Of a stretch of 64,000 bases of DNA, positions 3,036 through 60,064 are shown one piece after another; positions within the stretch are counted from its first letter, which is position 1, and every line of letters starts with the position of its first letter. This DNA comes from Parasitella parasitica (lineage: Eukaryota; Mucoromycota; Mucoromycetes; Mucorales; Mucoraceae), in assembly GCA_025201805.1 (NCBI GenBank), contig MU619300.1, positions 70,962-134,961 of the forward strand. The letters are read 5' to 3'. The notes under the pieces are model-generated. The model had not been told where the DNA came from, made no database searches, and saw only the letters and a list, made by a program, of their open reading frames with translations. The position numbers and the translations under genes are program-made.

Positions 3036-3507
3036 TGTGTCTGTATTTAGTAAAAGCTCAAAGAAGAAGGAGGCAAACAAGCAAAATCATTTCAAAAAGC
3101 TGTTGGTACCACAATGCGTAAATTAAGTGGTTCAGTTGGCCCTGAAAATTGGAATGTCGAGGGCAATTGCTTAAAAAAGCATATGCTTAAATGCAGCTAT
3201 AATAGCATATAACAATCACGACACGTTATATACGTCCATTGTTTATTGTTATTATTATTATTATTATTATCCAGCAAAGCCCTCGTGGCATTTCAGACAT
3301 ATCCATGAGACCACTTTTGACAATGAGGATCCCCCAATTTCTCTACATCTCCTCTCAAATCACGCGAGCTGCTGCCATGGAGATGACGTACTCTTGGGCT
3401 ATTCTTTAGAAGTCCTTTGGGGGTATAAATACTTGTTCTTGAAGCAGTTTTTCTTCTTGTTCATTACAAATTACATATTACAAAGCAAAACTTACCAATC
3501 CCATACA
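3036..3507. promoter_or_regulatory. Divergent AFI1/SKP1 promoter region
   Basis: A 472-bp gap between the start codons of two divergent genes. It contains a (TTA)n microsatellite at about 3247-3270 and a TATA-like GGTATAAATA at about 3421-3430, some 80 bp upstream of the SKP1 start. A pyrimidine-rich leader follows. No operator or known factor site could be assigned. Confidence 0.45.
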
Positions 3508-4238
3508 ATGAGTGTCTTTCTTCAGAGTTCAGATGGCGAGGATTTTAAAATCGACAGGGATGTTGCTGAACGTTCCGTTTTGATCAAGAACATGCTCGAA
3601 GGTACCAACAAGAAAACTTTTTTTTTTTTATGAAATTGAGCTCTATTTTCTAATCGTCATTTTTAATGGCTTTTGTAGATATTGGAGAAAGTGATGCTCC
3701 TATCCCTCTCCCTAATGTTACAAGCAAGATTTTGGGCAAGGTAAATACCGTCGCGATGGAGACTTGGGCAATGGATATGTCCAATTAACAAATTTAACAG
3801 GTGATCGAGTGGTGTATACATCATAGAGATGACGCTTTGGTTCAAGATGACCAAGAAAGACGTAATACTGATATCGACGAGTGGGACCAAAAGTTCATGG
3901 AGGTTGACCAAGAGACTTTGTTTGATATTATTTTGGTAAGAGCAACAGGGAATAAAAATTTGCTGTTTCTGGTAATTGATAAGTTGTGGTGATAAATAGG
4001 CTGCCAACTATCTCGATATCAAGCCTCTTCTTGATATTGGATGCAAGACTGTTGCCAACATGATCAAGGGTAAGAATGCGGAAGAGATTCGCCGTACTTT
4101 TAATATCACCAATGATTTCACTCCAGAGGAAGAAGCCCAAATCAAGAAGGAAAACGTAAGTATTTTGTGTATCAGCGCAGACAGAACAATTGTAATCTGA
4201 CAACGCTCTAAATACAGGAATGGGCCGAAGATCGTTAA
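3508..4238 (+). CDS. SKP1: SKP1, SCF ubiquitin-ligase adaptor
   Basis: Five exons (3508-3601, 3679-3740, 3801-3935, 4000-4155, 4218-4238) sum to 468 nt and give a 155-residue protein, the usual SKP1 size. The N-terminus [20 protein letters not shown] matches the SKP1 BTB/POZ start. The C-terminal half has [20 protein letters not shown], then [16 protein letters not shown] and a final NEWAEDR, the F-box-binding Skp1 signature (family ending WCEDR; Trp-Ala here). SKP1 bridges Cul1 and F-box proteins in SCF ligases; two F-box proteins occur elsewhere in the window (36295-37440, 49467-50525). Introns are 60-77 nt with standard borders. Its 3' end lies about 105 bp from that of GPN1 (convergent). 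Confidence 0.97.
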
Positions 4239-4342
4239 ATAGCTCTTTATTTTTTTTTTTTTTTTTACCCTTGATAAACAGAATGATTCACATGCATTAA
4301 AAAACGAACTTTTTGTTGAAGCAAAACTAGTGGGTTTATTAT

Positions 4343-5689
4343 TTATGTGCTATCCTTTGTATGAGACAGCCAGCTTTTGAATTTTTCATCCTCTTCTCGT
4401 TGAGCTTTGGAAGGGGGATATTTAGAGGCACTTGGTAACGGATTCTGGTCGCTATCGTACTCTTCACCCTCATCCTCATCCTCATCCTCATCCTCCTCTG
4501 CTTCGGCATCATCCCAGCGATCATCTTCTAAATTGTCTATACAAAAGAAAAACGCACATCAGTTCTTTTGTCTGGTCCAGATAAAAAAAAAAAAACGACT
4601 TACGTTCTTTGTTCAATGAGACTTCAGACCCCTTTGTCATTTTCATGTCTTTCATCAACTTGTTCAACTGCTTTTCCCGATTTTTCTCTTCTTTAGCCAT
4701 CTTTTCACGGATCATTCTTTCTATTTCAGGCTTGTATTCCACTTCATACTCGTCGGCTGCTTCTGACACAGCTTGGAAAAACTCATCAATGCCAGCGCCT
4801 GTAACGGCAGAAACGCCCACCACCTTTAGATGGTTGTAAAATTCATCCAGCACCAGGCTCATGGAAGACATTAGACTGCTCATATAAGTCGTATCCTGGC
4901 TCAGTGCTTCCTGGAACTTTTCAAAATCAGTCATCCACTCGACAGCAAAATCGTGCGATACGACATCCGTCTTGTTGAATACCAAGATGAATGGCAGCTT
5001 GGTCTTGTAAAGAATGCTGCAAGCGTATAACATGTTGCTCATGAATGTCGCCGGTGAAGTAGTGCGTGGTGTGTCAATAATGTACGCAATCATGGTGGGA
5101 TAAGATGCAGCTAACGTATCTGTGATGATGGCGCCAGATGCTGACCACGTGAAGATCTCAATCTGTCCAGGTGTATCGACCAGAATATTGCTGCAAGCGG
5201 ATTAGCACACAATTATTGCACAGTTACTTTTGACAGTTGATTAGTCCCCTACCTAACACTTTGTGAGCGCTTGGCTACAAGATTAAGCACTTGATCGAAC
5301 TTGGTTGTGAATAAATTAAGGCTGGTCAAAATGCCGCCATTAGGACCGAGGTTATATCTAACGAAATGTGTCAATATTGACGTATATGGGTCAATCGCAC
5401 TCGGGTACTTGCTGCTTCATCACTTCTTTGTAGTTGACAGTATCTCTGATATCGATGTTTGCGGTGAATGGAAGAGAAGCCACTGCAGGATCCAGATTCA
5501 GGACGTACGGAGGAGTCTTTTTCTCGTGAAGGTAAGCGTTGATTCTCTACCATGTACGTGTTTAGTAAAACGCCATTACTCTATCGCTAGCTAATAAATT
5601 ACCTGCATAAATGTCGTTTTTCCAGAACCAGCCATACCAATACAAAGGATGACAGGAGGTTGCTTTTCTTCTTTATTCTCGGCTGACAT
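4343..5689 (-). CDS. GPN1: GPN-loop GTPase 1 (Npa3/XAB1 family)
   Basis: The start at 5689 gives [18 protein letters not shown] followed by [11 protein letters not shown], a P-loop (Walker A) placed as in GPN1. Downstream are [20 protein letters not shown], which resembles GPN switch II, and [16 protein letters not shown], which carries the NKxD guanine-specificity motif. The C-terminal tail is acidic (poly Asp/Glu around 4460-4500) and ends [13 protein letters not shown]1 works with GPN3 in assembly and nuclear import of RNA polymerase II; the role here is by homology. Several short introns interrupt the gene (for example after the P-loop exon and at about 4540-4600, the latter with an A-rich stretch). 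It is convergent with SKP1 and divergent from the aldehyde dehydrogenase gene. Confidence 0.93.
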
Positions 5690-6965
5690 GTCTAATATCT
5701 TGTTGGTTTCCAAACAGCAACCTATTCTCTATTGATCAAATCTTTTTGATTACTCTGGAAGAGGGGTCACAGTCGAGTCACCACCTTGATGCACTGCACT
5801 GCAAAAGTTACATGGTGGGTAGTGATCGACAATGCTTTTGGTTTTTTAACAGTGGTATTTATCTATGCGACCACTCAACTATCTACACAAAAACACGTCT
5901 CGAGTATTAAGCAGATTTGTATTCTGTGTCTTGAAGTGCATTGGTAGTAGATATTTGGAGTTCCAATGACTACAAAACTTGCCTTATATTAGCAGCTGAG
6001 CACAATTCTGACATATGATCTATATTTTGCAGATGTTGGCTAAAAAAAAAATTCGACCATTATATTTTCGCAAATTTTGTTTTTAAAGATGAATATATTG
6101 AATTTGCTGGACAGCACTCGTTTTATCATTTTGTCTCATTTGTAGCATGGACAGTCGAACAATTGTTTACTTGATTACAAATTTTTAAAAGTATAATTTA
6201 TCAAGATGTGAAAGTTATAAAAGTTTGACTTGGCCAAAAAAAAAAAAAAAAAAAAAAATATCAGTGCACATTATCCTCATTAAACCTCACACGTTATTAG
6301 GTGAGCGTAGAGACATCTATGGTTGCTACTTTTAAAAAAGCAAACGACAATTTGCTTACTGTTAGTAGTGGAAATGCTACTTGTAATTGGCTGAGGCAGG
6401 CCGACCTTACATGCACTCGATTTAATGATGAAAAAACAAAATGCCAGTGTCACGATGAATGCGCTAAAATTTAAACGCGCAAATCACATTGCAGAATTGT
6501 TTCTTTCTTGACGAACAGATTAGGAAAAAATGGGATCAACACATAAAAGCATAAAAGAGACATTCCCTTTTTAGGTGGAAATAATTGTAATCAGTGTAAC
6601 TGACATTTGTCATATACTCTATGTTTCCCACGTCTTTCTCGGTTTGGACATCAGCGGACCAACTTACTATAACTAAACAGCTTCGAAAGCCCATCAAACC
6701 AACAATAGACGTATCAAGTATTCGATTTGCTATTATATTCCTAGAGAGAAAGATCTAGCGAGCGTATACAGCATGAAGCCAGCCGTATGCATAGAGAGAT
6801 CAGAGAATAGTAAATGATCACCCATGATGCAAATGCAAATTCTCACACAGTTTTAGTCACAATGTTTGAAAGTCCTTGGTAATAGTTTGCCAAATCCAAT
6901 ATAAAAAGGAAGCTAATACGGCTCATTTTACTTGATTCTTTTTATTTTTCTTTCAGTTCGCCAAG
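5690..6965. other. Intergenic, divergent GPN1/ALDH promoters
   Basis: About 1.28 kb between two divergently read genes. AT-rich, with a 22-bp A run at about 6237-6258 and several shorter A runs. A TATA-like TATAAAA lies at about 6900-6906, roughly 65 bp upstream of the aldehyde dehydrogenase start, followed by a T-rich leader. No coding potential was recognised. Confidence 0.5.
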
Positions 6966-8774
6966 ATGACCCAAGCAGATATTCAAACTATTCGTTTAAC
7001 AAACGGAAAGACAGCCAATGGTATGTGTGTCGTCTTTGCGTATTGAATGATACTCGATGCATCTAACATGAACCGCATAGTTCATACGCAGCTTTTCATC
7101 AACAATGAATTTGTCCCGGGACACGGACCTTTGATCGAAACCATCAACCCTGCCAATGAGGAAGTTATCTGCAAGGTGCACTCTGCCGACGAAAACGATG
7201 TCAATCTAGCAGTTGAATCTGCATACAATTGCTATTACAAGACATGGAGAAAGGTGGCCCCCGCTGAGCGTGGCCGACTCCTCAACAAACTTGCTGACTT
7301 GATGGAGCGTGATAAGGACGAGATTGCTATCTTGGACGCTGTCGATAATGGCAAATCTTTTGTCATTGCTCGTGATGTTGATGTTACCGAGTCAATTGGC
7401 TGCTATCGCTACTTTGCTGGCTGGGCTGATAAGATCCACGGTAAAACTATCGACACAACCTTTGACAAGATGTGCTATACACGCCATGAGTCTCTCGGTG
7501 TCGTTGGCGCCGTTGTTGTAAGTATATCAAGGCGGGATCTCTCATGTGTTACTCACAGCATTTTTTTTTCCCTTTATTTTTCTAGCCCTGGAATTACCCC
7601 ACTATGATGGCTGGCTGGTAAGTAGTGTATTTGGAAAGGAGGTAATAGTAGACGGTAGCTGACTAACGTTGACAATTAGGAAATTTGCTCCTGCTCTGGC
7701 CACTGGTAACTGTAGTAAGTGTCACTTGCATCCAGTTTTTTGATAAAAAAAATTAAACCATGTTGACATGAACTTTGTTGAATAGTTGTCTTGAAATCAT
7801 CCGAAGTTACTCCTTTGGCTACTCTCAAGTTTGGTGAACTTGTCAAGGAAGCTGGCTTCCCTGCTGTAAGATATTCCGTCGCAAGCTGTATGCCAAATAC
7901 TGATTTTTTTTGCATTCAATAGGGTGTCGTTAACATCATCACTGGCTATGGTCACACAACTGGTAACTACTTGTCTGCTCACCCCAAGATCAGCAAGATG
8001 GCCTTCACAGGCTCCACTGTTACTGGCCGTAAGATCATGGAAAGCAGTGCCGGTAGCAACCTCAAGAAGCTCCAACTTGAGTTGGGCGGTAAATCAGCTC
8101 AAATTGTTCTTGCTGACGCTGATCTCGAAAGCAGTGCTTATTGGGCTTCTGGTGGCATCTTCAACAACCATGGTCAGAGCTGTAATGCTGGTTCTCGTAT
8201 CTTTGTTCACGAGTCTGTCCACGACAAGTTTGTTGAGCTCTTTATTGAGGAGACCAAGAAACTCAAGCTTGGGGATCCTTTTGACGACGAAACTTTCCAA
8301 GGCCCTCAAATCAATAAGTCTCAGTTTGATAAAATCTTGAATTACATTGAGATTGGCAAGAAGGAAGGTGCCAAGGTTGCTTATGGCGGTAAACGTTGGG
8401 GCAACAAGGGCTATTTCATTGAGCCCACTGTTCTCATCAACTGTAATAATGACATGCGTGTCATGCGTGAAGAGATTTTCGGTCCTGTTGTTGCTATTGG
8501 CACCTTCAAGACCATTGAAGAAGCTATTGATCTCGCCAATGACTCTGACTATGGCTTGGCTGGCGGTGTATATACCCAGAACCTCGACGATGCTATCAAA
8601 GTTACTAATGAAGTTAGAGCTGGCACAATGTGGGTCAACTGCTATGATGTCTTTGACCAATCTACTCCCTTTGGTGGCTACAAGCAATCTGGTTTTGGCA
8701 AAGAGCTTGGTAAATACGCTCTTCATGAATACACCCAAGTCAAGGTTGTCAAAATCCTCCTATCAAAGATCTAA
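6966..8774 (+). CDS. NAD(P)-dependent aldehyde dehydrogenase
   Basis: Short first exon (6966 to about 7020, MTQADIQTIRLTNGKTAN), then exons joined across introns at about 7021-7079, 7518-7585, 7619-7679, 7714-7785 and 7866-7920. The protein has the class 1/2 ALDH order: GVVGAVVPWNYPTMM (cofactor-binding PWN), FTGSTVTGRKI, LELGGKSAQIV (general-base Glu), FNNHGQSCNAGSR (catalytic Cys in the GQxC context), and EEIFGPVVAIGTF near the C-terminus. It ends HEYTQVKVVKILLSKI, like cytosolic and mitochondrial fungal ALDHs. It oxidises aldehydes such as acetaldehyde to acids. No clear mitochondrial presequence is visible, so a cytosolic enzyme is favoured. Its 3' end converges on the dehydratase gene, 167 bp away. 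Confidence 0.95.
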
Positions 8775-10826: not shown

Positions 10827-13800
10827 ATGCCATTACTTGATTTACTTGAGGATTCAGGTTGCTCAATAGGGCCTGATGGCATTATGTTTGGTGAGTCACA
10901 GCACACATGCACTTGGGAAGCAGCACTGACAAATCGCTACTCTAGTCATCGAGCCCGTTTTGTTTAGGAGAAAACTCTCCAGCCTGCTGAGAGCCCAGCC
11001 CCAAGCTCCCGAAGCGTTTATTAGAGACATTCAGGACTACACTGAAGACCCGCTAGAATTTAGAAAGCTCCTACTGCCATCGAAAATGGATGAAAATAGT
11101 GTAGGGAGAGCTGGTCGGTAAGTCATGGTATACTGCTGGAGGGAGGGATCGACGTTTCCGAAAACTGACAGGCTTACATCCGCAGCTCATCATGTTCAGA
11201 CAGCTTGTTCAAAACTTTACTGGCAATTGATTCCGTGCAAGCTGATTTGATCACCTATCTGCTAGAAAGACTGCCTGAATTTTACGACGAATTGGAGAAT
11301 GAGTAAGTGTGGCGATTGATTCATTCATGCGAGAACTGCGGCTCATAATGTCCCTGCTGTAGCAACTCGAGTTCTTGCACGGCTCGTTTGATTTTGCATC
11401 AATTGCGATGGCTAGACTACATTGTCCAGCCCGAAGCGCTCACAGGCAAACTGATCGAGATTATCCAGATCACCCCGCCCATCATTCAGCATGAAATGAT
11501 CACTTCTCTGCCAGACATTGTCAACGATTCCGAGCACAAGCCCATTGTCGTGTTTTTAAAGGAGCTCATGAACGACAACGGCGATCTGACTGTGGCTATT
11601 CTTGACGCACTTTCCAACCTGACGCTCCATTCAGAAAGCCTGGAGGATGTGAGAGAAACCGTGCTGGATCGATTGGAATCAGCACACTTGGATGACTTGG
11701 CAGTAATCATCAAATTTATGCTCCAGACTGTGACGCCAGCCACCGTTGACCAAGTTGTATGGGGGATTCGGCAGAAACTTAACTTTCGCTCTCTAAGCAG
11801 CAGTAAATCCAACCCAAGCCAAAACAGCCATGCAAGGACAGCAGCGCCTGAAGCACTCATAGTAGAGTCCATCAAACTGGGCTTGCAATTTCACAAGTTT
11901 GTGTGTGATTCGTGGTTCAAGTCCATCATTGCACTAGAGACAAAACGAGACCACAAGCTGATTGACATGATGGTGCTGATTATTTTGTATTCCATGACAT
12001 CGATAAAGAAAAAGGTAGAAGGCGCTGTAAAAAAGAAAATTATCTGCGGTTATATTACTGGGCCTTTGGTTCAAGAAACAATTATCAATCATCCAGATGG
12101 ATTGGCGGGTTACTGGGGCACCGTCTTGTCTTTGGCAGAGAGTCTGCTGCGCGCTAGTCAGCAAAACAGTACATTATCACCGTGCGCCAGTGCCATGTAT
12201 ATCAGTGCATTCAAATCGACAGATGCATACTATCGACAGGAGATCATCGGCGCACTCGTTACTCATATTGGCAGTGGCGTCGAGGTGGAAATGAATGTTG
12301 CATTGAATGTGTTGCTGGAACTAGTCAAGACGGATGTTTCCAGTGTTGTAATTTATAGCGTATTCATAAAGGGCATCTTGGATTACTTGGACAACTTGAA
12401 TGAATTTCAAATCCGCACCTTGTTTGATATATTTAGTTTGCTGGCATTAACGGTAAGCGACGTATTAGCATCATGTAACGATTTTTTTTTTCATGACAAA
12501 ATTGTCTAGACGGGTACTGATGCGGATGGTTCTGGTAACCTCTGGTCTGAAATACAGACGATTATAAGAAAACAATTGTCAAACCCAAGAGAGAAATACA
12601 AAAGCATTGGCATAATCGCAAGCTTGTCGGCTGTCAAAGTGCTAGGATCTAAAAAGCTGTGCATAGCATTCCAAAATCAACATTCCGAAGCAGGAGGGTC
12701 CTCCAGCACTCAAGTTAGTCGAGCAGCATTAGCACAAACTGCAGAAAGACACCCATTATTACAGAAAGCTACTGAATTACTCGACTTTGCACTTCGCAGT
12801 TCAGGAGAATATACCAATTGTATCAAACTTATCTATGATGATTTGGCCCACATGATCCAAGAAGAAGACATTGACGAGAGATTGGAACTTTGGATCAAGG
12901 AGAACATGACTTCTGATTTCACAGAATTTTACATGGCTGCCGTAGTGGATGCGGATGCTTATATCCAGGAATCAAAGAATAACGGGTACCTTAAATTGGA
13001 ACCAGTGCTACAAATGGGATTAGATGAAGTATGTGAGTTTGCTTGTAAGCTTGAATGGTCCTATTTACCATCTTTCCCCCCTCCCCCCTCCCCCCCCCCC
13101 TTTTTCTTGTTAGAGCGAAATTACTGTCAAGATGTTTGAATTATTGCACAATAATTTAGATTTTCGAAAAAAAAAAGCTCAAATTGTCCCCATGTGCTCC
13201 ATCTTCCACTTAATTCAAAGCTGCGAAAAGAAGCTTAACAATGGCAGCTTGGAAGAAGTAGATGCCTTATTTGGTTGCAGTGTGGTTCTGTTTGACGGCG
13301 AAAACCTAGACGACTTACCAGTAGAAGAAGTTGAATGTGCATGCGACATGCTTTTTTATACTATCAATTGGTTCAAGCAACTACTAAACGCATTCATGTT
13401 TAGTACTGAAGAAGAAAACTATCAAGCACGATTGTTCGAAAGACTGAGAAACATTCTTCTAATGGAATCCTTGCTAGAACAGCTAATGAAAAAAGTACCA
13501 AATTACGTACCATTGGAATTTCATACTATTGATACAATAAAGATGACCACTGCAACTACACTGTTGGCCATAGGTGATAATACCAGTCAGTCTACTTTGG
13601 ACGAAACAACTAGAACAAAATCCAGTAACGGCAATATCGCAGCTAAACCACACACCAACATCAAACTGAGTTCTATCCAAGATTTACGATCATATACTAG
13701 AGCCTTCGATGTGCACGTGTTGGAATTATTGAAATACAGTGAGCAAATGGACGACAATGACACGAAATTAACCGTGAAAGAAATCGACTACCTGCTACAG

Positions 13801-15944
13801 GATATTGAGCAAAAACTAGACATCAAGGTGTCGCCACCGCCAGTAGCATTCTTTGGCAAGAAAAAAGCGGACAAGCATCAACAGAATACATGCAATTTCA
13901 TCATGTTGGCAAGGGTAGATGCTCGACGATTAATGAAAAAGGTAATATTTTTTTTGTGTGTGATTTCTCGGTTTCTCACATTTTAGCTTAGGTTTTGGTG
14001 TATTTGCCAGAGATTCTACAAACATTAGAGAATCTCTATGCAGAGTTACAGGAAAAGGTACTTGTCATTGAGCATGAAGCTGGCATTATTACTGACTCGT
14101 TCAATTCTAGGATATAGAGCCAGGACATATAGATGTAAGAGATCTGATTTTATAGTGGAAAAAAAAAAGGATCCGGCTTGACGTTTTTATAGGGGTCAGA
14201 GACACTTGTTGAATGCATCACTAGGATTTTTGATATCGTCTTCAAACTAGTCTCGTGGCCGGACATTGAGATTGCGGATAATAAAGACATCCTCAAAGAT
14301 ATCATCCGCATCGTTGCTGAGAGAGTCTCTGGCAAGGATCCACAACAAGCATTTGAGTATCTATCCAACTACATTGTCGGCATCCCCAAAGCAACCACAG
14401 CAGTATTGCTATACAAGATATTACTACGGTTCATGGCACTGTTTAATGTCATTGACAACAAATATGCTCTCAATGTGGTAAACCAGATTGTGTCTACAGA
14501 TTGGTTTGACTGGAGAGACATTCAAAAGGAAATTCCGTTCTTGTTTGAAGAGTCTATTGAAAAGAGCCAAGCGTCATTGTCATTGCTGTCTGATTTTGTT
14601 AATATCGTACTACCCCGATATGAAGCAGAGGGCGTTTTAGAAGAGTATCCACTACTGAAACCAGACACCATCAACCAGCACTATCAGGTCTGTTTCGTAG
14701 TTTAGAGCGCATTTTATACTCGATCACTGATATTTTAGTATTCAATAGGCCATCTTTAATCAAACCGTCAAGGCATTAGATTTGCTAAAAGATACAGATC
14801 AAGACGCTGAGATTGTCTTGACGCAAACTGCACATATTGTCAAGATATTCGAACGACTCACAGATTATGTAAAAACCAAAGAGAACAGAACCCTGATGGG
14901 TGTCTTGCTAAAGGCAGGACGTATATTCATCGACCAATTTACAAAACACTCTGTTCCGTACTTTTCAAGCGTTTTCAAAGAGCATTCACCTAGTATCCTT
15001 AGCATTTTCAAAGATTTACAATCTAGTACTCGAATGCTTCAGGTAAGAAAAAAAATAAGCGGTTTTGCTCGAAAGATGTGTGTTTTTTTTTACAATTCAT
15101 AGATTATATGCTCTCATGTTAAAGTGTTGAAGGATGTGTCTCAAAGTGCCTATGTACCGCCATTGAAAAAGTCATTGGAAATTGTAATTTACCAGGTCAA
15201 GCTGGTCCTCATTGAAAACCGCATACCACAATCTGCATTTTTTATGGGTAAGCTGAGTCAATTGAATGACGACTTGATAGGGGAGCTAAAACTTGAGATT
15301 TTTAGGTGCATTGAAACATAGAGATATTCATGGCGCTGAAGTGTCATCACAGGTGATAATGATTGTCTGCGCACTTTTTACCAAGAAACTGATAATGGCT
15401 CTAGATTCCAAAGGACCTCTCAGCATCTTCAGAAGAAGAACAAGATGAAATTGTTGATGAAGGCGTAGAATTGCAAGCAATCGAAGAGGAGGATGAGCAA
15501 GAAGAAGAAGATGAGACTGATTCCCAGGAGAAGAAGCATAAAAAAGCCAGAAAATCGGCCGCTCCCAAACGCAAAAGAAATAGCAGTGCAATCCGAAAAC
15601 AAAAAAGTGTCCAAATTACTTACCGTACATCGAGCGTTGTGCCTTCTTCATCTGATGAAGACAATGGAGAGCCTGAATACAAAAGAAAGAAAGCTACTAG
15701 AAAAGCACAATGCCAAGTTGAGGATGAGAGAGAAGAGGAGGAAGAGGGCGTGATTGTATTTACTGATGGCGACCTTCAATCTGATGAAGATGAACCCATG
15801 GACGATAAAGAAGTATTACCGCCTTCTCTATCACCTTCGCCCTCACCATCGCCTCCACCTCCACCTATAAAGAAGCAATCTGCACCTAAGCGCGGCAGTC
15901 TTGGTTTATCGAAATCTTCCAAGACTTTCAATCTAAGTAAATAA
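10827..15944 (+). CDS. FANCD2: FANCD2, Fanconi anaemia DNA-crosslink repair protein
   Basis: Large multi-exon gene starting with MPLLDLLEDSGCSIGPDGIM (10827-10890). The next exons are 10946-11117, 11186-11302 and 11363-about 12451. Helical-repeat sequence runs collinear with animal FANCD2 over the whole length: HEMITSLPDIVNDSEH, LDDLAVIIKFML, EIIGALVTHIGSG, FIKGILDYLDNLNEFQIRTL, LEEVDALFGC, VPPLKKSLEIVIYQVK and FFMGALKHRDIHGAEVSS. The last needs splicing from ATGG at about 15247 to GTGCATTG at about 15306. The mono-ubiquitination site (FVKGILDYLDN in animals) keeps its Lys, here residue 454, codon 12369-12371. The C-terminus is acidic, then Lys/Arg-rich, with a short Pro run. In animals FANCD2-FANCI clamps DNA at stalled forks after FANCL ubiquitination. 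S. cerevisiae and S. pombe lack it. Confidence 0.95.
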
Positions 15945-32845: not shown

Positions 32846-33403
32846 GTAAAGTTATGAATGTTTGCAAGATAGCTAATTGCAGATACAGTAATGTGTCTAA
32901 AACCTCTACTTTATTTACCGCCGTAGACATAAGAAGCGTGTTTGCCTTTATCCCTCTAATAACAGCTGCTTGAGTATACTGAGACACAATAAAGCAGATA
33001 TTTATTTTCTTTGCATTTTCTACAACTAAACAAATACATCAATTCGAGTGAACGCAACTCTTAATGTGCAGCAGGTAGCTCTTCGCACTTGGAATGTGAT
33101 GCTATCTTCCTACCATAGGAAATAATGACCTATGGCCCCAAAAGGTCAAGAGTCTCGTTTACAAGGGCAGTTTATGTTGTTGACATGAACATGATTACAG
33201 CAACAATTTCATTCAGGCAAATGATGGCATACAGCATAATGCCAACTCCTGCGCCACTTCGCGTTATTCTTGCATGAAAGGACCTTGCATTCAGCTTATC
33301 GTCACGCGATTTAAGACGCGATGTTTATTTATTTATAATCCAAAAAAGGATGTTTCATCGTTTTTCCCTCTTTCTTTCATCAAATAATTTTCACTGCCAA
33401 ACT
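32846..33403 (+). promoter_or_regulatory. Promoter region of R1-like gene with ACGCGA motifs
   Basis: The 560-bp region upstream of the ribonucleotide reductase homologue holds ACGCGA at 33304-33309 and 33316-33321, and the reverse-oriented TTCGCGTT at 33258-33265. These match the MCB/E2F core used by MBF- or E2F-type factors at S-phase and DNA-damage genes in fungi. A TTTATTTATTTATAA tract at about 33325-33339 may serve as TATA. Regulation by MBF is inference. Confidence 0.6.
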
Positions 33404-35958
33404 ATGTACGTTCTAAAGAGAGGTAAAGTATAGATGTCGTCGCATGTACGCAACGTGCCGCTCACCAGCTTGCTTTATTCGAAAGACGGAACCCAAGAAA
33501 AAGTCTTTTTCGATAAAATTAGCTCTCGCATCAACATCTTGTGCAAAGGCCTGGATGAAAACTTTGTTGATCCTCCCAAGATCTCTCAAAAGGTAGTTAC
33601 TGGCATGTATCCTGGTATTACCACTGTTCAGTTGGATAATTTGGCTGCAGAGATTGCTGTGGACATGACGGACATTCATCCTGACTATGCCGTTCTGGCT
33701 GCCCGGATCTCTGTCTCCAACCTTCAAAAGGAAACGCATGACAAATTCTCAGATGCCATGCAAGAGTTATACAACAACAAGCACCCCAAGACAGGCGCTT
33801 CCAATCCTTTGGTTTCCAAGGAGTTTTTAGACATGGTTTTAGAAAATGCAGACAAGATCAATGCTGCCATCGATTACCAACGTGATTTCGACTTCAACTA
33901 TTTTGGTTTCAAGATTCTCGAACAGAATTATCTCTTGAAGGTTGGTGACAAAATTGTCGAGCGTCCTCAGCAAATGCTGATGCGTGTTGCGCTCGCAATT
34001 CACGGCCACGATTTCGAATCTGCATTCCAGGCGTACGACTACACCTCCCGCCAGCTTTTTACTTATGCCGAAACAACCATCTTGAATGCTGGTACTGCAA
34101 ACGGTCAGCTCTCTAGTTTCTTTCAAGTTCAAATGAAGGAAGATAGTATCGAGGGTATTTACGATACTGTCGCAACTTGTGCTCGTATCTCCAAAGCGTC
34201 TGGTACTGTCGGTATGAGCTTTCAAAAGATTCGTGCCTCGGGCTCTTATATCGCTGGTACTAATGGTACGTCTAACGGTATTATTCCCATGTTGCGTGTA
34301 TTCAATGATGCTGCACGTTTCATCACTCCTGGTGCTAAAAAGGTAAAGGGTACGTATGCTGTTTATCTCGAGCCTTGGCATGCCGATATCTTTGAGTTTA
34401 TTGATCTCTCGAAAAACTCTGGCGAGGAGAATCTCCGTGCTCGTCATCTCCTTCTTGGTCTTTGGATTCCTGACATCTTTATGAAGCGTAAGTTTTGCAT
34501 TGGCATAATTGTGCCATGTGTTCTGTGCTAACCCTGCGGTGGTTTTATAGGTGTCGAAGAGAATGGGGATTGGTCTTTAATGTGTCCTAATGAATGTCCT
34601 CGTCTTGATACCACTTATGGCCAAGAATTTGAGGATCTCTATCTGGGTTATGAAAAGGCTGGTAAGGCTAGAAAGACTGTATCTGCTCAAAAGCTATGGT
34701 TCTCTATTTTGGATGCTCAAATCGAGAGTAGCATGCCTTTCATGTGTTATAAAGGTATATCTGGCTTTAGTGATGAAGAGATACATTTGCTAACAGCATT
34801 TGCCATGCGATAGATGCTGCTAATGAAAAAAACAATCAAAAGAACCTTGGTGTCATCTCTGGATCCAACCTTCGTGCTGATATCATGCAATATTCGGATG
34901 CTGAAGAGGTCTCTTCCACCAATATTGCCTCCATCGCTCTTCCCAAGTGTGTTGATGCTCACACTCGCACCTTCAACTTTGAAACTCTTCACGACATTGT
35001 CAAGCTTGTCATCAAAAACCTAGATAGAATGATTGATGCCAACAAGTACGTACTGGAAGAGGCCGAGAAGAGTGCTCTCAAGCACAGAGCTATCGGGTTA
35101 GGTGTTCAAGGCTTGGCTGACGTATTCTTGATGATGCATCATCCTTTTGATTCCCCTGAAGCCCGCCAGTTGAACAGAGATATCTTTGAGTCCATCTATT
35201 TTGCTGCCCTCGAAGCTTCTAATGAATTAGCACAAAAAAATGGTGCTTATCCTTCATATGAAGGCTCTCCCATCAGTCAAGGCATATTGCAACACGATTT
35301 ATGGAATGTGGAAGGCTCTGATCGTCTTGATTGGGCTACGCTTCGTGCTAATATCAAGGAGCATGGTGTGCGTAACTCCCTCCTCGTCGCTCCTATGCCA
35401 ACTACCACCACTAGCCAATTTCTCGGTAACAACGATGGCATTGAACCTTATCAGAGCATGGTTTTCACTCATCGCTCTGCTACTGGCGAATGCCAAGCTG
35501 TCAACCCTCATTTGCTCAAGGACTTGATTGAGCGCGGTATGTGGAGCCCTCAAGTCAAAGATATGTTGATCCAATCCAACGGCAGTGTCCAAAAGCTTCC
35601 TTTGATCTCTGATGATCTCAAGAAGCTGTACAAGACTGTGTGGGAAATCTCACAACGTGTTGTCATCGATATGGCTGCTGATCGTGCTGCTTTTATCGAC
35701 CAGTCGCAATCACTCAACTTGTTCTCCGCCGACCCTAATTATAGTCGTCTTTCATCTATGCATTTTTACTGCTGGAAGAAGGGGCTGAAGACTGGTATGC
35801 AATATCTCAGGACGAGTCCTCTTGAAGCAATGAGATTAACTATGGGTGAAGAACAAAAGGAAGATATCGAACAGGAAATTGAAAAGACGGCTGAAGATTT
35901 GGCTGCTATCGCTTGTTCTCTTGAAAACCCTGAAGCTTGTGTTAGCTGTAGCGGATAA
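33404..35958 (+). CDS. Ribonucleotide reductase large-subunit homologue lacking catalytic cysteines
   Basis: Four exons (33404-33422, 33486-34487, 34551-34754, 34814-35958) sum to 2370 nt and give 789 residues. The 19-nt first exon restores [20 protein letters not shown], the canonical R1 ATP-cone start. Collinear class I R1 blocks follow: [98 protein letters not shown] and a C-terminal CVSCSG. The conserved positions are altered: Cys218 is Phe ([10 protein letters not shown]), Cys429 is Arg and Glu431 is Asp (SNLRADI), Cys444 is Thr (EVSSTNIAS), and the first radical-path Tyr is Gln (TGMQYLR). Asn427, the second Tyr and the C-terminal Cys pair remain. Normal R1 reduces NDPs to dNDPs using these cysteines, so this one should be inactive. 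A true RNR1 should exist elsewhere in the genome. Confidence 0.95.
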
Positions 35959-36294: not shown

Positions 36295-37440
36295 CTACTG
36301 TAAATGGACAGTATACTGTAATTGAAGTCGATCCAAGTAGCTACAAACAAGATTCTTTGCAAAGCTATTGTCAAGTGCAATCCCAAAGGTTCGTTCCTTG
36401 TGACCCGTTCGCGTAGAATATGAAATGACTGGATCAGCGTAATAAGAAGGGCGAAGAAACACTAATTTAGTCTTCCAATCTTCTTTTTCAGGTGGGAGTG
36501 TATTGAAAATATACTTGAGGTACGTTAAAAGATTTGCTGGCTTGATATTCTTGATGCATAATTTGCTGTCTGCGAGGACATTCATCCATAGCATAAAATC
36601 TCTGACGGCTTCGAGCTGACTCGGTGGTTGTGAATCGTTTACTGAATCAAAGATACTGATCGTCAACTTTTCAGCATTAGTGAGGTTGAAGAGGAATTTG
36701 TTTAATTCTGCATGGTTAAACCCATTTGCTACTTTTGATGAAATCTCCAAATCTCGCAATGAGGAATGCTCCTTGGCCGGTATACGAGACATCAACGGTG
36801 ATTGTGTCAATTGGAATTTCACGTATGAAAGTCGAGTACTAGTATTTAGCACAGAGGAAATGATTGCAAGCGGATCAGTCAGAGCACCTAGAGTCAATTC
36901 TCTAAGATTGGGAAAGCCGCAATTCAACACTAGCTCGCAATTTACTTCAGGGCTTTGTAGATCAAGCTGTGTTATTGACAGCCGAAATTTTCGGACGCAC
37001 AAGCCGTAGTATATATCATAGTTAACGATAGGGATGCGCTGGAGCCGATCCAAGTGCATATCATCAGGCAATGAACTGAGTGAATGAAGCACAGCATTAT
37101 CAATAACGTTATTGCTGGTTATTGAGCGTATATCTCTGCAGTATTGAATAAACGATCTAACAGTTGTCGCAAACCTGTGCATGCTACTAATCTGGTAGAC
37201 ATTGAAATGAATACTTTTGACCAATGAGCCGCGCGGTGAGGAGCTGTATTGAGACTTCTGCATGTAGAGGGTGAACTTTACGAGGCTTATCTCGGTATTA
37301 AAATCCACTTTTTCGTATGGCTTTGATCCAACCGCGATATGCCATGTGTGACAAACAAGCTGGCATGCTGCAAGATCTGTCGAGTACAAGTTATTAAGTA
37401 CGTTTTCAAGTAGCTCAACAGGCAAATTAGAAATTGACAT
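36295..37440 (-). CDS. F-box protein with LRR-like C-terminal region
   Basis: Single exon, 381 residues. The first about 45 residues are an F-box: MSISNLPVELLENVLNNLYS, then TDLAACQLVCHTWHIAVGS. The rest is a diverged leucine-rich-repeat-like array (for example RKFRLSITQLDLQSPEV, GFPNLRELTLGALTDP, SSLRDLEISSK). It should act as a substrate receptor of an SCF ligase by binding SKP1. Large families of such proteins are common in Mucoromycota, and the substrate cannot be inferred. It has the same general architecture as the F-box gene at 49467-50525 but is not a close copy. Confidence 0.85.
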   Translation of the reverse strand: MSISNLPVELLENVLNNLYSTDLAACQLVCHTWHIAVGSKPYEKVDFNTEISLVKFTLYMQKSQYSSSPRGSLVKSIHFNVYQISSMHRFATTVRSFIQYCRDIRSITSNNVIDNAVLHSLSSLPDDMHLDRLQRIPIVNYDIYYGLCVRKFRLSITQLDLQSPEVNCELVLNCGFPNLRELTLGALTDPLAIISSVLNTSTRLSYVKFQLTQSPLMSRIPAKEHSSLRDLEISSKVANGFNHAELNKFLFNLTNAEKLTISIFDSVNDSQPPSQLEAVRDFMLWMNVLADSKLCIKNIKPANLLTYLKYIFNTLPPEKEDWKTKLVFLRPSYYADPVISYSTRTGHKERTFGIALDNSFAKNLVCSYLDRLQLQYTVHLQ

Positions 37441-49466: not shown

Positions 49467-50525
49467 TTAATTCGATACATTTCTGACCCTTATATGTACG
49501 TGGGTATCTGTATCATTATAAAGATTATTTTTGAAAATGACGGTGCCATTTTGATAATTGATATGATCCAGGATACACTCCTTAATGTCATATTCTTTGT
49601 AATCGTAAAACATGAGATCGTAAACTGGTACTTTTTGGAGCGCATCAAGCACCTGAATATAGCAATATTTGATCTGTTCTTGATCTTGGTCCTGGTTTTC
49701 GTCTATACAAGTCATGTCGATGATGGCCGTTTCAATTTTTGAAAACTTTTGCGCCGCGTATTGAACACAATTGGGCCAGGCACCAAAGTTTTTGGCTTGG
49801 AGAAGCTTGAGTGAATCGAATTTGTTTGAGCTCTCTGGCAAATCGACAGCTATCTCGTTGAAAGGCGGCTCACAATGGTAAAACTTTAGTTTATCTAACG
49901 AGCGTCTTTCGTCTTGTGAATGGCAACTGTCTATGGCGCGATCCAATTCCGCATAGCAGTTGACATTGCCTCCAACAACAATTGATTTGAGACATTTGAA
50001 TTCATCCAGTTTCCGATTGTCATCATCCTGTCGAAGAGAAATGTATATTTCTTGCAACCTGTCTTTGAGGTGAGGAACCAGCAAAGTGTACTCAAAGGGA
50101 GGATCAAAGTTAGGGTGAGGGATAACAGCCAACTTGCTAAGCTTGTTCTTTTGATTTGTGATCAGTTTCAACAGTTGGCCGTAGCATGCATCGTCATCAA
50201 CCTCTCCTTCCAGGACCGTCAAGTTTGGAGTCAAGGCAAATAAATCCCAACAATTCTCCGTGAATGCTTGGTCAATGTACCATGGATAGTTGTCAATGGA
50301 CAGTTTTTTGATCAATTTCCCATTCTCTGGATATGTTTTCAAATGATGGTAGAGTCGCAAAGCTTCTTCGCTTGAATTGAGGACAATCGGCCTCCCAAGA
50401 ACACTTGGGCTAGCGATCCTATACCATTCCGCGCAGACTAGTCTGCATTGGCATAATTGTGCAAGTGTGTTGACGTAACCAAAGATTTCAATCAAAATTT
50501 CTGCAGGCAAGGAATTGTTTGACAT
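49467..50525 (-). CDS. F-box protein
   Basis: Single exon, 352 residues. The N-terminal F-box reads MSNNSLPAEILIEIFGYVNT, then LAQLCQCRLVCAEWYRIASP. The rest is a diverged repeat region with leucine-rich segments (NLTVLEGEVDDDACYGQLLK, LPESSNKFDSLKLLQAKNF). It is likely an SCF substrate receptor that binds SKP1; substrate unknown. A short DQDQDQ run occurs near residue 280. It differs clearly from the F-box gene at 36295-37440 outside the F-box. Confidence 0.85.
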   Translation of the reverse strand: MSNNSLPAEILIEIFGYVNTLAQLCQCRLVCAEWYRIASPSVLGRPIVLNSSEEALRLYHHLKTYPENGKLIKKLSIDNYPWYIDQAFTENCWDLFALTPNLTVLEGEVDDDACYGQLLKLITNQKNKLSKLAVIPHPNFDPPFEYTLLVPHLKDRLQEIYISLRQDDDNRKLDEFKCLKSIVVGGNVNCYAELDRAIDSCHSQDERRSLDKLKFYHCEPPFNEIAVDLPESSNKFDSLKLLQAKNFGAWPNCVQYAAQKFSKIETAIIDMTCIDENQDQDQEQIKYCYIQVLDALQKVPVYDLMFYDYKEYDIKECILDHINYQNGTVIFKNNLYNDTDTHVHIRVRNVSN

Positions 50526-56780: not shown

Positions 56781-59700
56781 ATGGCGTCGCACTGCGGAAA
56801 CCCTCTTCTACGGGACTGGATGAAGGAAGAAATGAACAAGATCCAAACTGTCTCCAAAAACATCTATTTCACATACAAAAAAGTAACTCTACGATAAAGA
56901 TCGCTTCCCTTCGGTTTCTGACACAAATCATGCACAGGCCTATGAATCTCTCAGTAAATGTCCTTTAGAATTTGCGCATCCTGCCGAAGCTGTTGTGTTG
57001 GAGGGCATTGGGCCTGCCATTGTTAGGCTCCTCACTGACAAGCTTAAAGAATACTGCAGGGAGAACGGACTGCCGATGCCCCCAGAGCCAACAAAAGGTA
57101 CGAATCCTATCCATCAGCATTATAATTTTTTAAATTTTCCCCACTCATATCCGTGCAGTCAAAAGGAAACGAGCGGCGGCCCAGTTTGAAGACGACAATA
57201 TCCAAGTAGATGATAACGGAGAACCTATACCTTTTCGACCAGCTCCTAAAAGAAAGCAGAAAGCCTATGTCCCTAAATTTAGAAGCGGCGGCTATGGTAT
57301 TTTGGTGGCCTTGTTAGATATCCACGACGTTGGTAGAGCGGAGGCAACAGAGCAGCAGATTTGCAGATTGGCCCAAGATCATTGTGACGCATCGTATACC
57401 TTGAAAGAGCCAGGAAGCAATTATACCGCCTGGAACAGTATGAAAACACTAGTGGAAAAAGGATATGTATATAAAAACGGAACACCAAAAAAATACCAGT
57501 TGACAGAGACAGGATTTACACTAGCCGAGAGATTGAAGGAAGTGAATAGCGCTAATAGAGGCAGTAGAAGTGGAGGGTCTTCTTCGACGCCCAGAGCGAG
57601 ACCTACTGTGCTACCTACATCGTCAGGAGCAGCGTTTGCGGCAGCTATCGGCAGCGACAGCGATGAAGATGTCAATGCCATCGATCTAAGCCAATACGTC
57701 CTTAACCCTGACCAGTACTCTTCCATCTCTATCAACGGCCGCTCATCTGGGCCATCATCTAGCAACCCATCAACCGCGAGATTTCGTAGTTCCCGTAGCA
57801 CATTTGACGATGATTTGGATTTGGGCAGTATTGATTGGGATGCTGTTGATCGACAGGAACGACCACCAAATCCACCGCCATCTACGTTAACGACATCTTC
57901 GAGGGCTGATATTATGGCTGCGCTATCGGTTGACAATAGTAATAGTAGAGGCAGTAGCGCAAAGATTAGGTATACCAGAAAGCCAAAGAAAGACAAAGGA
58001 AGATCAACGGCATCCATTTTTGAGAGTTTGCTTGAAAGCATGGGAGGGGAAGAAGATCTTACTCGACCTGATATGAGTCTATACGTGATGAACCCAAGTC
58101 AACATCAAACAATTTCGCTGAACGGTCGAACCGTCACCAATACACCATCGCTTAATAGACCTGCCGACCGAAACCATAGCAACAAAAGTGCCAGCAATAT
58201 ACCCAGTAGATCGCCATCGAGTGCTTCATCTATCACGAATGCCGCCAGTACCTCTGCTTTTGCGCAACAAGTCATGAACGAAACCGACGGTCCCTCGTTT
58301 GGCGACCTTGTAAGGCCGACTAAATACAAAACACCTGCGACCTCATTGATACTTTTAAAAGACGCTGCCAAAAAAAAGGAAATAGCAACGAACAAACGGC
58401 AATACAACGTCGATGAATTCGAAATGGATCTTTCTGACATGCCTTCTTTACCACTACTTTTAGGCTCGTCGCAGCTTTCTCAGCCAACTCGAGACGACAT
58501 TGTTGATCTTTTATCATCGCCAGAGCCATCGCCAGAGCCATCGCCAGAGCCTCCATTTCGACCTGCTGTCTTGATGGACGACGATCTCACATTTGATAAT
58601 GATGATGATGTTGATCCAGACAAAGACTACTTTCCACTATCTCAATCACGGAACAAACACATAGCGGACAAAGCATTTCATTTTACATATCTGGACACAA
58701 ACAACCAACCGCAGAGGCACGTAGCCAAGGCAGCTGTGGAAATTGACCATGTTAGTGGTGGGCTGTCCTATCTGGTAAAATATCAAACAAAGCAAAGCAG
58801 CCATCCTAAAGCGCAGCATATGATAAAAAAGAAGGTAAAAAATGATTTTACGATAGCGTATCTTCCAGAGTTGCATACGGAAACAGTGTGTCCTGGGTTG
58901 CCTGCAGCGCCGATTTTACCGTTGCATCGTGAAGAAGAGGATAGCTTTTGGCCAGACACGACAAGCCCAAAAACCACTGTGCGCCAAAAGACAGCTGATT
59001 CAGCTTCCATTGCCAGTCAATCCCTCATGCAGCAATCATCTCAGAATGACTTGGAATCCCAACCCTTTTTCCCGCCCCAGAAGCAAAAGAAACTGGACTT
59101 TGATGCTCTGGTAGCTAGAGAACCCATTACTGAAACATTGCTCCCCGATGAATATGAAATTGTGCTCATTTTGGACAGCCGAGAGATTCAGATGAAGGGC
59201 AATCGAAGCTATTTTCAAGACAGTTTAGCTGCCAAAGGAGTCCAATGCATTACGCGATCCATGGATCTTGGTGATGTGATCTGGATCGCACGACCTATTG
59301 GCAGCACTAATCAAGCCGAAGAATTGTTCCTAGATTATATCCTGGAACGCAAACGACTAGATGATCTAGTGTCCAGCATTAAGGATGGCCGATTCGTGGA
59401 GCAAAAGACAAGATTGAAAAGGACAGGCGCCAAGAAGGTGATCTATGTCGTGGAAAACTACAATCGCGAAGAAGCCGAACGTTTTAGCCTCCAGGCTGTG
59501 CAGACTGCCATGTCCCTTACGCAAATAATTGATGGCATTTTTCTGAAGCGCACAAACACAATTGACGAGACCATTGAGTACCTCGTATCTGCTACAAAGC
59601 TTGTCAAACGCATCTATCAGGGCCATAAGCTGCACGCCATTCCAGGACACCTTATCACACGACAGAATTATCTGAATCTGAAGCAAGCCTATTCTACAAA

Positions 59701-60064
59701 AGAAGCAAACGCAGCTGACCCAGAAGCCTATTTGGTGAGTTACCCGTTGTTTGGTCAGCTAAATTCAAAGAATGGCTCGGTCAGCGTTCATGAGGTCTAT
59801 CTGAAGATGCTGATGACGATTCGCGGCGTCAATGCTGAAAGAGCTTTATCCTTGATGAAGGTTTATCCAACCCCAAGAGCGCTTTTAATGGCTTTTAAGG
59901 ATAAATCGCCAGACGACGCAAAGTGTTTGGCCAAAAATGCTACACAAAATCATATCAATCGGCGAAGATGGAATGCCAAGATCAGCGAAAACTTGTATGA
60001 CGTTTGGGGAGCTTTGCAATATCCTACCGAGCCCGCAACTGACGATGAAGAAGGGGATCATTAA
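56781..60064 (+). CDS. MUS81: MUS81 structure-specific endonuclease subunit
   Basis: Exon 1 (56781 to about 56882) encodes MASHCGNPLLRDWMKEEMNK. The second exon gives the HhH-like KCPLEFAHPAEAVVLEGIGP. The third (from about 57160) runs to the stop at 60062-60064; total about 1,050 residues. Winged-helix region: GGYGILVALLDIHDVGRAEA through LTETGFTLAERL. The C-terminal ERCC4 nuclease has LILDSREIQMKGNRSYFQD and the catalytic ERKRLDDLVSSIKDGRF (ERKxxxD), then VIYVVENYNREEAERF and a C-terminal HhH. MUS81 with EME1 cuts 3'-flaps and stalled forks or Holliday junctions. About 450 residues of Ser/Asn-rich linker between winged helix and nuclease make it longer than usual MUS81 (about 550-650). The linker holds two copies of a YVxNPxQ-containing motif. 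Confidence 0.95.

Follow-up and report, generated by a model that had tools for sequence, protein, structure and literature searches.

A predicted large-subunit pseudoenzyme of ribonucleotide reductase retained in Parasitella parasitica and other Mucorales

In almost every cell, ribonucleotide reductase (RNR) governs the supply of deoxynucleoside triphosphates (dNTPs). Its large subunit (R1, or alpha) is usually viewed as a homo-oligomer with identical active sites. Yeast Rnr1 and a second R1 paralogue, Rnr3, reportedly join in a 'cross-talking' mixed R1 complex, to judge by the title of a 2002 study by Domkin. Rnr3 is called a (minor) catalytic subunit in the title of PMC6545439, and Saccharomyces cerevisiae Rnr4 is given a structural role in the RNR tetramer in a passage of PMC5673236. 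The betaherpesvirus R1 homologues, namely UL45 of human cytomegalovirus (HCMV), M45 of murine cytomegalovirus (MCMV) and U28 of human herpesvirus 6B (HHV-6B), have lost enzyme activity while the gene has been retained (portions of PMC11772975 and PMC5469499). Neurospora crassa UN-24, as part of PMC3618301 presents it, is an active R1 with a non-enzymatic role that resides in a C-terminal tail varying between alleles, and it forms a complex with Rnr1p. Here we describe an R1 homologue gene of Parasitella parasitica, located at 33404-35958 (+) of a 64,000-nucleotide window (the whole stretch of contig MU619300.1 that was analysed), which sequence comparisons lead us to regard with high confidence as an old, selected and retained R1 pseudoenzyme (hereafter pseudo-R1).

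The pseudo-R1 and its orthologues from other Mucorales, which together form a clade, resemble class Ia R1 (RRM1/Rnr1) in descent, domain order, fold, effector-site residues, D57 and the CxxC tail, but they are without its catalytic cysteine pattern, E431, the loop-2 residues Q288 and R293, and Y737. Like the betaherpesvirus proteins, as far as the cited portions describe them, they are retained R1 homologues predicted to lack activity; unlike those proteins, they are fungal, arise from within the R1s of Mucorales and share the cell with active R1 paralogues. Rnr4 is likewise a paralogous RNR subunit, although it derives from the small subunit (R2), whereas here the large subunit is affected. 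Rnr3 is alike in being a second R1 paralogue reported in a mixed complex, but it is catalytic, which the pseudo-R1 is predicted not to be by known chemistry. UN-24 offers a fungal R1 with a non-enzymatic role in its tail and a complex with Rnr1p, yet in that source it is active and its tail varies, whereas the end of the clade's tail is invariant and catalysis appears to have been lost. No description of a cellular R1 pseudoenzyme family was found in the literature searched (titles and abstracts, open-licence papers), which agrees with an earlier reading made from the letters of the window alone (the sequence-only reading), whose author knew of no cellular fungal R1 of this kind. This comparison suggests that inactive viral R1s, the structural R2 paralogue Rnr4 and the mixed Rnr1/Rnr3 complex are already known, and that a cellular R1 pseudoenzyme clade is new.

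The gene runs from start codon to stop codon in four exons, whose joining yields a coding sequence of 2370 nt (789 residues plus stop) with no internal stop and no frameshift. Its three introns (63, 63 and 59 nt) all have GT..AG ends, and the intact four-exon frame of the sequence-only reading is thereby upheld. The predicted exon 1 (33404-33422, +) is only 19 nt long, encodes MYVLKR plus 1 nt and is followed by a GT-AG intron at 33423-33485; the N-terminal pattern MYV(I/V/L)KRDG.QEK is also seen in full-length models of orthologues, among them P0002, P0003, P0011 and P0013. Exon 2 (33486-34487, +) carries the remainder of the ATP cone, the all-alpha domain, the strand with residue 218, the effector site and loops 1 and 2, and is followed by exon 3 (34551-34754, +) and by exon 4 (34814-35958, +), which holds the 429/444 strands, the remaining barrel, the tail and the stop. 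All three introns are matched in protein position by introns of the R1 paralogue on contig C106 of this genome, and that paralogue contains one additional intron with no equivalent in the pseudo-R1.

Pfam matches above their cut-offs (PF03477, PF00317 and PF02867) assign the ATP cone to residues 1-89, the all-alpha domain to 142-213 and the barrel to 217-739. This is the domain order of a class Ia RNR large subunit (ATP cone, all-alpha domain, ten-stranded barrel), and Pfam revealed no extra domain beyond these. The clade profile is collinear with human R1 (3hnc), and the human register that had been claimed for the active site holds: window numbering equals human numbering to about residue 455 and is human + 1 afterwards, such that Q738 corresponds to human Y737. 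An AlphaFold2 model of orthologue P0003, with a predicted local distance difference test score (pLDDT) of 84.7, superposes on chain B of 3hnc with a template modelling (TM) score of 0.98 (target) and a root-mean-square deviation of 1.5, and the R1 fold of the clade is, on this model, intact. The pseudo-R1 also scores 596.7 bits against TIGR02506, an 'equivalog' model of the working enzyme with a curated cut-off of 341.05, and orthologues are labelled in databases as, for example, 'alpha subunit of ribonucleoside-diphosphate reductase'. As a result, annotation hides the gene among working enzymes.

At the active site, each of five substitutions named in the sequence-only reading is confirmed at its codon (all on the + strand). 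Residues 218 (TTC, Phe; 34118-34120) and 444 (ACC, Thr; 34918-34920) replace the redox cysteines of active R1s, residue 429 (CGT, Arg; 34873-34875) replaces the cysteine that carries the thiyl radical, residue 431 (GAT, Asp; 34879-34881) replaces Glu, and residue 738 (CAA, Gln; 35800-35802) replaces the first radical-transfer tyrosine, human Y737. The window protein has further losses that were not part of that reading. Residues 606-607 (35404-35409, +) are Thr-Thr in place of the Ala-Ser (human A605, S606) of the substrate phosphate loop, residue 202 is Glu where active R1s have Ser or Thr, and loop 2 (residues 286-295; 34322-34351, +, ends counted by hand) carries Q288P and R293V, both fixed in the clade save for R293I in one row. 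Passages of PMC5819950 assign Q288 and R293 to substrate positioning and sealing, S202 and T604-T607 to binding of the substrate phosphate, and state that radical transfer requires both tyrosines.

Protein searches with the window protein and with P0003 as queries, each taking the best 120 of 8000 scored candidates so that distant or clustered members may be missing, returned the same orthologue set. Among the matches listed, 15 proteins with 68-92% identity (to the window protein or P0003) ranked above the active R1s. They come from Mucor lusitanicus, M. mucedo, Mycotypha, Benjaminiella, Cokeromyces, Rhizopus microsporus, R. arrhizus, R. stolonifer, Choanephora, Gilbertella and five more sources. 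C218, C429, C444 and both tyrosines are present together in 142 of the 160 proteins listed. The other 18 comprise the 15 clade rows, P0061 (a gapped model with a deletion over 427-429) and two records excluded from clade counts, namely P0015, a mis-spliced M. lusitanicus clade model that lacks several stretches, and P0012, a partial Sarcophaga record whose alignment is poor at the final site. Eight orthologue models (P0001, P0004, P0005, P0006, P0007, P0009, P0010 and P0016) are 742-743 residues long and begin at residue 47, with half of the ATP cone missing, because the 19-nt first exon was probably missed. The full-length P0002, from a 2698-base contig, is either a complementary DNA or a spliced genomic prediction and was not used as expression evidence.

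The losses recur throughout this set. C218, E431, Q288, R293 and Y737 are absent from all 16 clade rows (window included). C429 is lost in 15 rows, with P0021 as the sole retention, and C444 in 13, with Cys still present in P0007, P0011 and P0014. The proposal that all three catalytic cysteines have been replaced therefore stands for the window and for 12 of 16 rows, and does not hold for these four proteins. Human position 737 is Gln in 15 rows and His in one, and the Y737/Y738 pair is thus broken everywhere. The pocket residues also vary inside the clade: position 429 is H, N, R, S, Y or C, position 218 is F, A or D, position 431 is D, N or A, and position 202 is occupied by seven different residues. 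Because cysteines, loop 2, phosphate-site residues and a tyrosine have been lost, the pseudo-R1 is predicted to be a protein that cannot reduce ribonucleotides by known chemistry.

Phylogenetic analysis places the window protein and its 15 orthologues in one clade (16 rows; support of 100 in the Shimodaira-Hasegawa-like approximate likelihood ratio test, SH-aLRT, 60-row tree), and 11 clade rows group with 100/100 support when a mixture model is applied to a 37-row alignment. Both trees put this clade inside a second, 'NG-type' R1 lineage of Mucorales, on a long stem of 0.50 and 0.63 changes per site. The 60-row tree groups it next to active NG-type R1s from Mucor, Rhizopus and related genera (SH-aLRT 91), a placement that the mixture-model tree does not fix. 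The pseudo-R1 is, by these sequence trees, a descendant of an NG-type (C106-like) R1 of Mucorales, and, among the rows compared, inactive and active NG-type R1s occur together in six species: the window's own genome, M. mucedo, Benjaminiella, Choanephora, R. arrhizus and R. stolonifer. A viral or herpesvirus-like origin was considered and rejected, given that the clade nests within the R1s of Mucorales in both trees (whose rows included no herpesvirus R1s). Two R1s of 52-53% identity turned up in a scan of viral contigs, and in the available portions of both the catalytic cysteines are retained.

Two further results speak to retention. When the coding sequence was subjected to unconstrained random mutation (transition weight 2) until the approximately 568 replacements of the window lineage were reached, 28.3 nonsense hits were expected (range 16-45, 200 simulations), whereas none is observed. 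Distances between the same pairs of species are larger for the pseudo-R1 than for the active paralogue by a median factor of 2.27 (range 0.98-3.30; 15 pairs, six species). The crown of the clade would thus have evolved faster than its active paralogue but far below the rate expected on loss of constraint, which speaks for constraint. The comparison with the C106 paralogue itself (dN, nonsynonymous divergence, 0.28; dS, synonymous divergence, 2.04) is saturated.

Four R1 loci emerged when the assembly to which the window belongs (30.7 Mb, 232 contigs) was searched with the barrel family: the pseudo-R1 on contig C64 and genes on C106, C157 and C172. The latter three keep C218, N427, C429, E431, C444 and both tyrosines, with C106 the nearest in kind to the pseudo-R1. 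Because three R1s with catalytic residues are present, the organism does not depend on the pseudo-R1 for catalysis. Three R2 loci were also found, canonical by eye and ending in FTLDADF or FSLDADF, a tail type that is named in a passage of PMC3483043. The sequence-only reading had interpreted the gene as a retained pseudoenzyme and asked for orthologues sharing the catalytic loss and for a second R1 with intact residues; 15 orthologue rows, three active paralogues and the nonsense test now bear that interpretation out.

The other RNR genes have peculiarities of their own. Two of the three R2 genes adjoin on the same strand of contig C55 (90414-93133). The C172 R1 (3500-8000) retains its catalytic residues, yet its loop 1 is altered (ASDSYIAGSNGEAHG), it reads TGQYYLR instead of TGMYYLR, and it sits on a long terminal branch (0.33); its effector control is possibly changed. 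All catalytic residues are kept in the NG-type R1 lineage of Mucoromycota (C106 and its relatives P0017-P0055), where T or N replaces D287 of the specificity loop in 34/34 rows examined (sister and other NG) and KRNG replaces KRPG in the rows shown; we read these proteins as active enzymes with a different loop 2.

Across the clade, residues related to catalysis have decayed and residues of the effector interface and tail have not, by the alignment. The specificity effector site, listed in a passage of PMC5819950 that also places effector binding at the R1 dimer interface, retains D226 (34142-34144, +), K243, R256, A263 and G264 in all 16 rows. The activity-site residue D57 is likewise found in 16/16 rows, and the hexamer-interface residues D16 and F15 in all six rows that cover them. 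The C-terminal tail (residues 772-789; 35902-35955, +, ends counted by hand) keeps C776, C784, C787, S788 and G789 throughout. The ATP cone, N427 and CxxC motif said to remain in the window protein are indeed there, together with D226, K243, R256 and Cys776/784/787, and the CxxC is present in every clade row.

To express this unevenness in numbers, we defined 349 active-invariant positions, those at which a single residue accounts for at least 98% of 59 active R1s. Of these, 208 are kept in all pseudo-R1 rows, a further 105 in only part of the rows, and 36 in no row. The earlier wording that exactly the chemistry residues had been lost is too narrow, as 36/349 invariant positions, loop-2 residues among them, have changed in all rows. 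The effector/dimer segment (226-244 plus 255-271) keeps 23/26 such positions compared with 185/323 elsewhere (p 0.0015), and the active-site segments keep 16/48 compared with 192/301 elsewhere (p 0.00011). Segment 640-735 keeps 24/32, and the tail keeps 6/7 versus 0/6 in the adjoining linker (p about 0.005, counted by hand). Mean pairwise identities, computed without P0006 (a near copy of P0004), follow a similar course when the clade is compared with active paralogues: 0.99 versus 0.95 for residues 255-280, which contain loop 1 (34229-34279, +, ends counted by hand), 0.85 versus 0.84 for 300-400, 0.72 versus 0.98 around residue 218, 0.67 versus 0.93 around 429/444, 0.68 versus 0.98 for 601-640, and a minimum of 0.49 versus 0.77 in the linker. 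Finally, at each of ten positions a new residue has become fixed across the 16 rows (Q55, I63, V235, A282, I286, P288, N322, M351, S443 and M624).

A regulatory-partner or structural-subunit role, as first proposed from the sequence, fits this pattern of kept residues, and we lean somewhat toward the interpretation that the pseudo-R1 is an alpha' protein, a non-catalytic partner of active R1. Such a protein would still dimerise and bind dNTP effectors, and its simplest partner would be an active R1 of the same cell, with which it would form mixed dimers or rings. By binding effector at the shared dimer interface, alpha' may shape the loop 2 of its neighbour and the oligomeric state, and its swinging CxxC tail may reduce the neighbour's C218-C444 disulphide in trans. 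Passages of two papers report that the catalytic disulphide of yeast R1 is reduced by the paired C-terminal cysteines of the neighbouring subunit (PMC3618301) and that the C-terminal cysteine motif is indispensable for regeneration (PMC6382339). An alpha' homodimer would have no complete disulphide to reduce because C218 is gone in 16/16 rows, and the conservation of C784 and C787 in every row despite the absence of a C218-C444 pair fits a tail that serves an active neighbour. The net effect of alpha' would be to tune dNTP synthesis, by activation or by buffering of the active pool, rather than to catalyze it.

Several observations weigh against a partner role. Loop 2, the intra-subunit link from effector to substrate, is changed in the clade, and the kept effector-site residues could serve the folding of an alpha' homodimer alone. 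The ATP cone keeps its invariant positions no better than the rest of the protein (31/46 versus 177/303, p 0.26), and the beta-hairpin adjoining it keeps 0/9 (p 0.00025); since the cone is unexceptional and the hairpin degraded, activity-site control may be altered or lost. When the tail is set against the remaining 342 positions rather than the linker, the difference is not significant (6/7 versus 202/342, p 0.25). C429 or C444 persists in four of the 16 rows, and the compared regions were partly picked after inspection of the alignment.

Before other explanations are weighed, some features of the surrounding window should be noted. Upstream of the pseudo-R1 ATG there is a CGCGT at -144 and an ACGCG at both -100 and -88 (window 33260-33316), a tally made with no chance control. 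The full ACGCGT, which we take to be an S-phase box, occurs twice upstream of the active R1 on C157 and once upstream of that on C172. FancD2-like exons (11388-13986, +) and a MUS81-like gene (57302-60064, +) share the 64-kb window, perhaps by coincidence. Two F-box-like genes are also present (36295-37440, - and 49467-50525, -), the first of which is just downstream of the pseudo-R1 and convergent with it. An Rfam scan of the window gave no match.

Two other roles share much of their evidence with the partner role. The dead alpha' might instead be an inhibitor or titrator. It would then restrain dNTP synthesis, for instance outside S phase or while spores are dormant, either by poisoning the mixed dimers or rings that it enters or by tying up R2 in non-productive complexes. 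The retention pattern is equally expected here: such an inhibitor could act only if the mixed complex assembles and is responsive to dNTPs, which would explain the kept tail and effector site. The well-kept segment 640-735 and the resemblance of the upstream ACGCG and CGCGT elements to the boxes of C157 and C172 are also in its favor, but inhibition has no need of a redox-competent CxxC tail, which is nevertheless kept in 16/16 rows, and from the sequences we rate this explanation as possible but rather unlikely. Still more doubtful is a moonlighting role, in which the R1 fold would have been co-opted for a task that has nothing to do with making dNTPs. The ten newly fixed residues might reflect such a task, and there are precedents in passages of PMC11772975 and PMC5469499, where inactive betaherpesvirus R1s have host-signalling roles, and of PMC3618301, where the C-terminus of a fungal R1 serves nonself recognition and forms a non-reducible complex with Rnr1p. 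However, the best-kept parts of the clade are the effector site and tail, which serve RNR function, the tail is invariable unlike that of UN-24, and Pfam reveals no added domain.

The remaining two explanations were rejected. An enzyme with new chemistry in the old pocket would be consistent with the intact fold, the fixed P288 and a Q738 present in 15/16 rows, but residues 218, 429, 431 and 202 are not conserved in the clade, and identity around 429/444 and in 604-640 is 0.67-0.68 compared with 0.93-0.98 in active paralogues. With no conserved pocket residues, we give this idea very little credence. A decaying pseudogene, a sequencing or assembly error, or a wrong gene model and mis-splicing is the least credible explanation of all. 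Although databases disagree on the 5' end and eight of 15 orthologue models start at residue 47, monophyly of the orthologues is supported at SH-aLRT 100 (16 rows) and 100/100 (11 rows), zero nonsense codons are seen where 28.3 are expected, and the crown rate is only 2.3 times that of the active paralogue. Sequencing error at the cysteine codons in particular is excluded because the orthologues, which stand in for re-sequencing, share the losses.

As a cellular clade in which a dead large subunit keeps its effector site and redox tail, these proteins offer a natural system for asking what one protomer does for its neighbour, be it effector sensing, the assembly of rings or re-reduction in trans. 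A bolder proposal, which we offer only tentatively from the sequence pattern, is that the class Ia RNR of Mucorales is naturally asymmetric. In such a heterodimer of alpha and alpha', or in a mixed ring, all the chemistry would fall to one protomer, and the dead protomer would be a dedicated effector-sensing and re-reducing subunit whose CxxC tail serves the adjacent active site. The clade includes genera that cause mucormycosis, and the RNR make-up of such genera is of general interest. Should the asymmetric enzyme exist, it would represent a genetically fixed form of one-active-site-at-a-time operation, with catalysis assigned to one large-subunit paralogue and allostery and re-reduction to the other.

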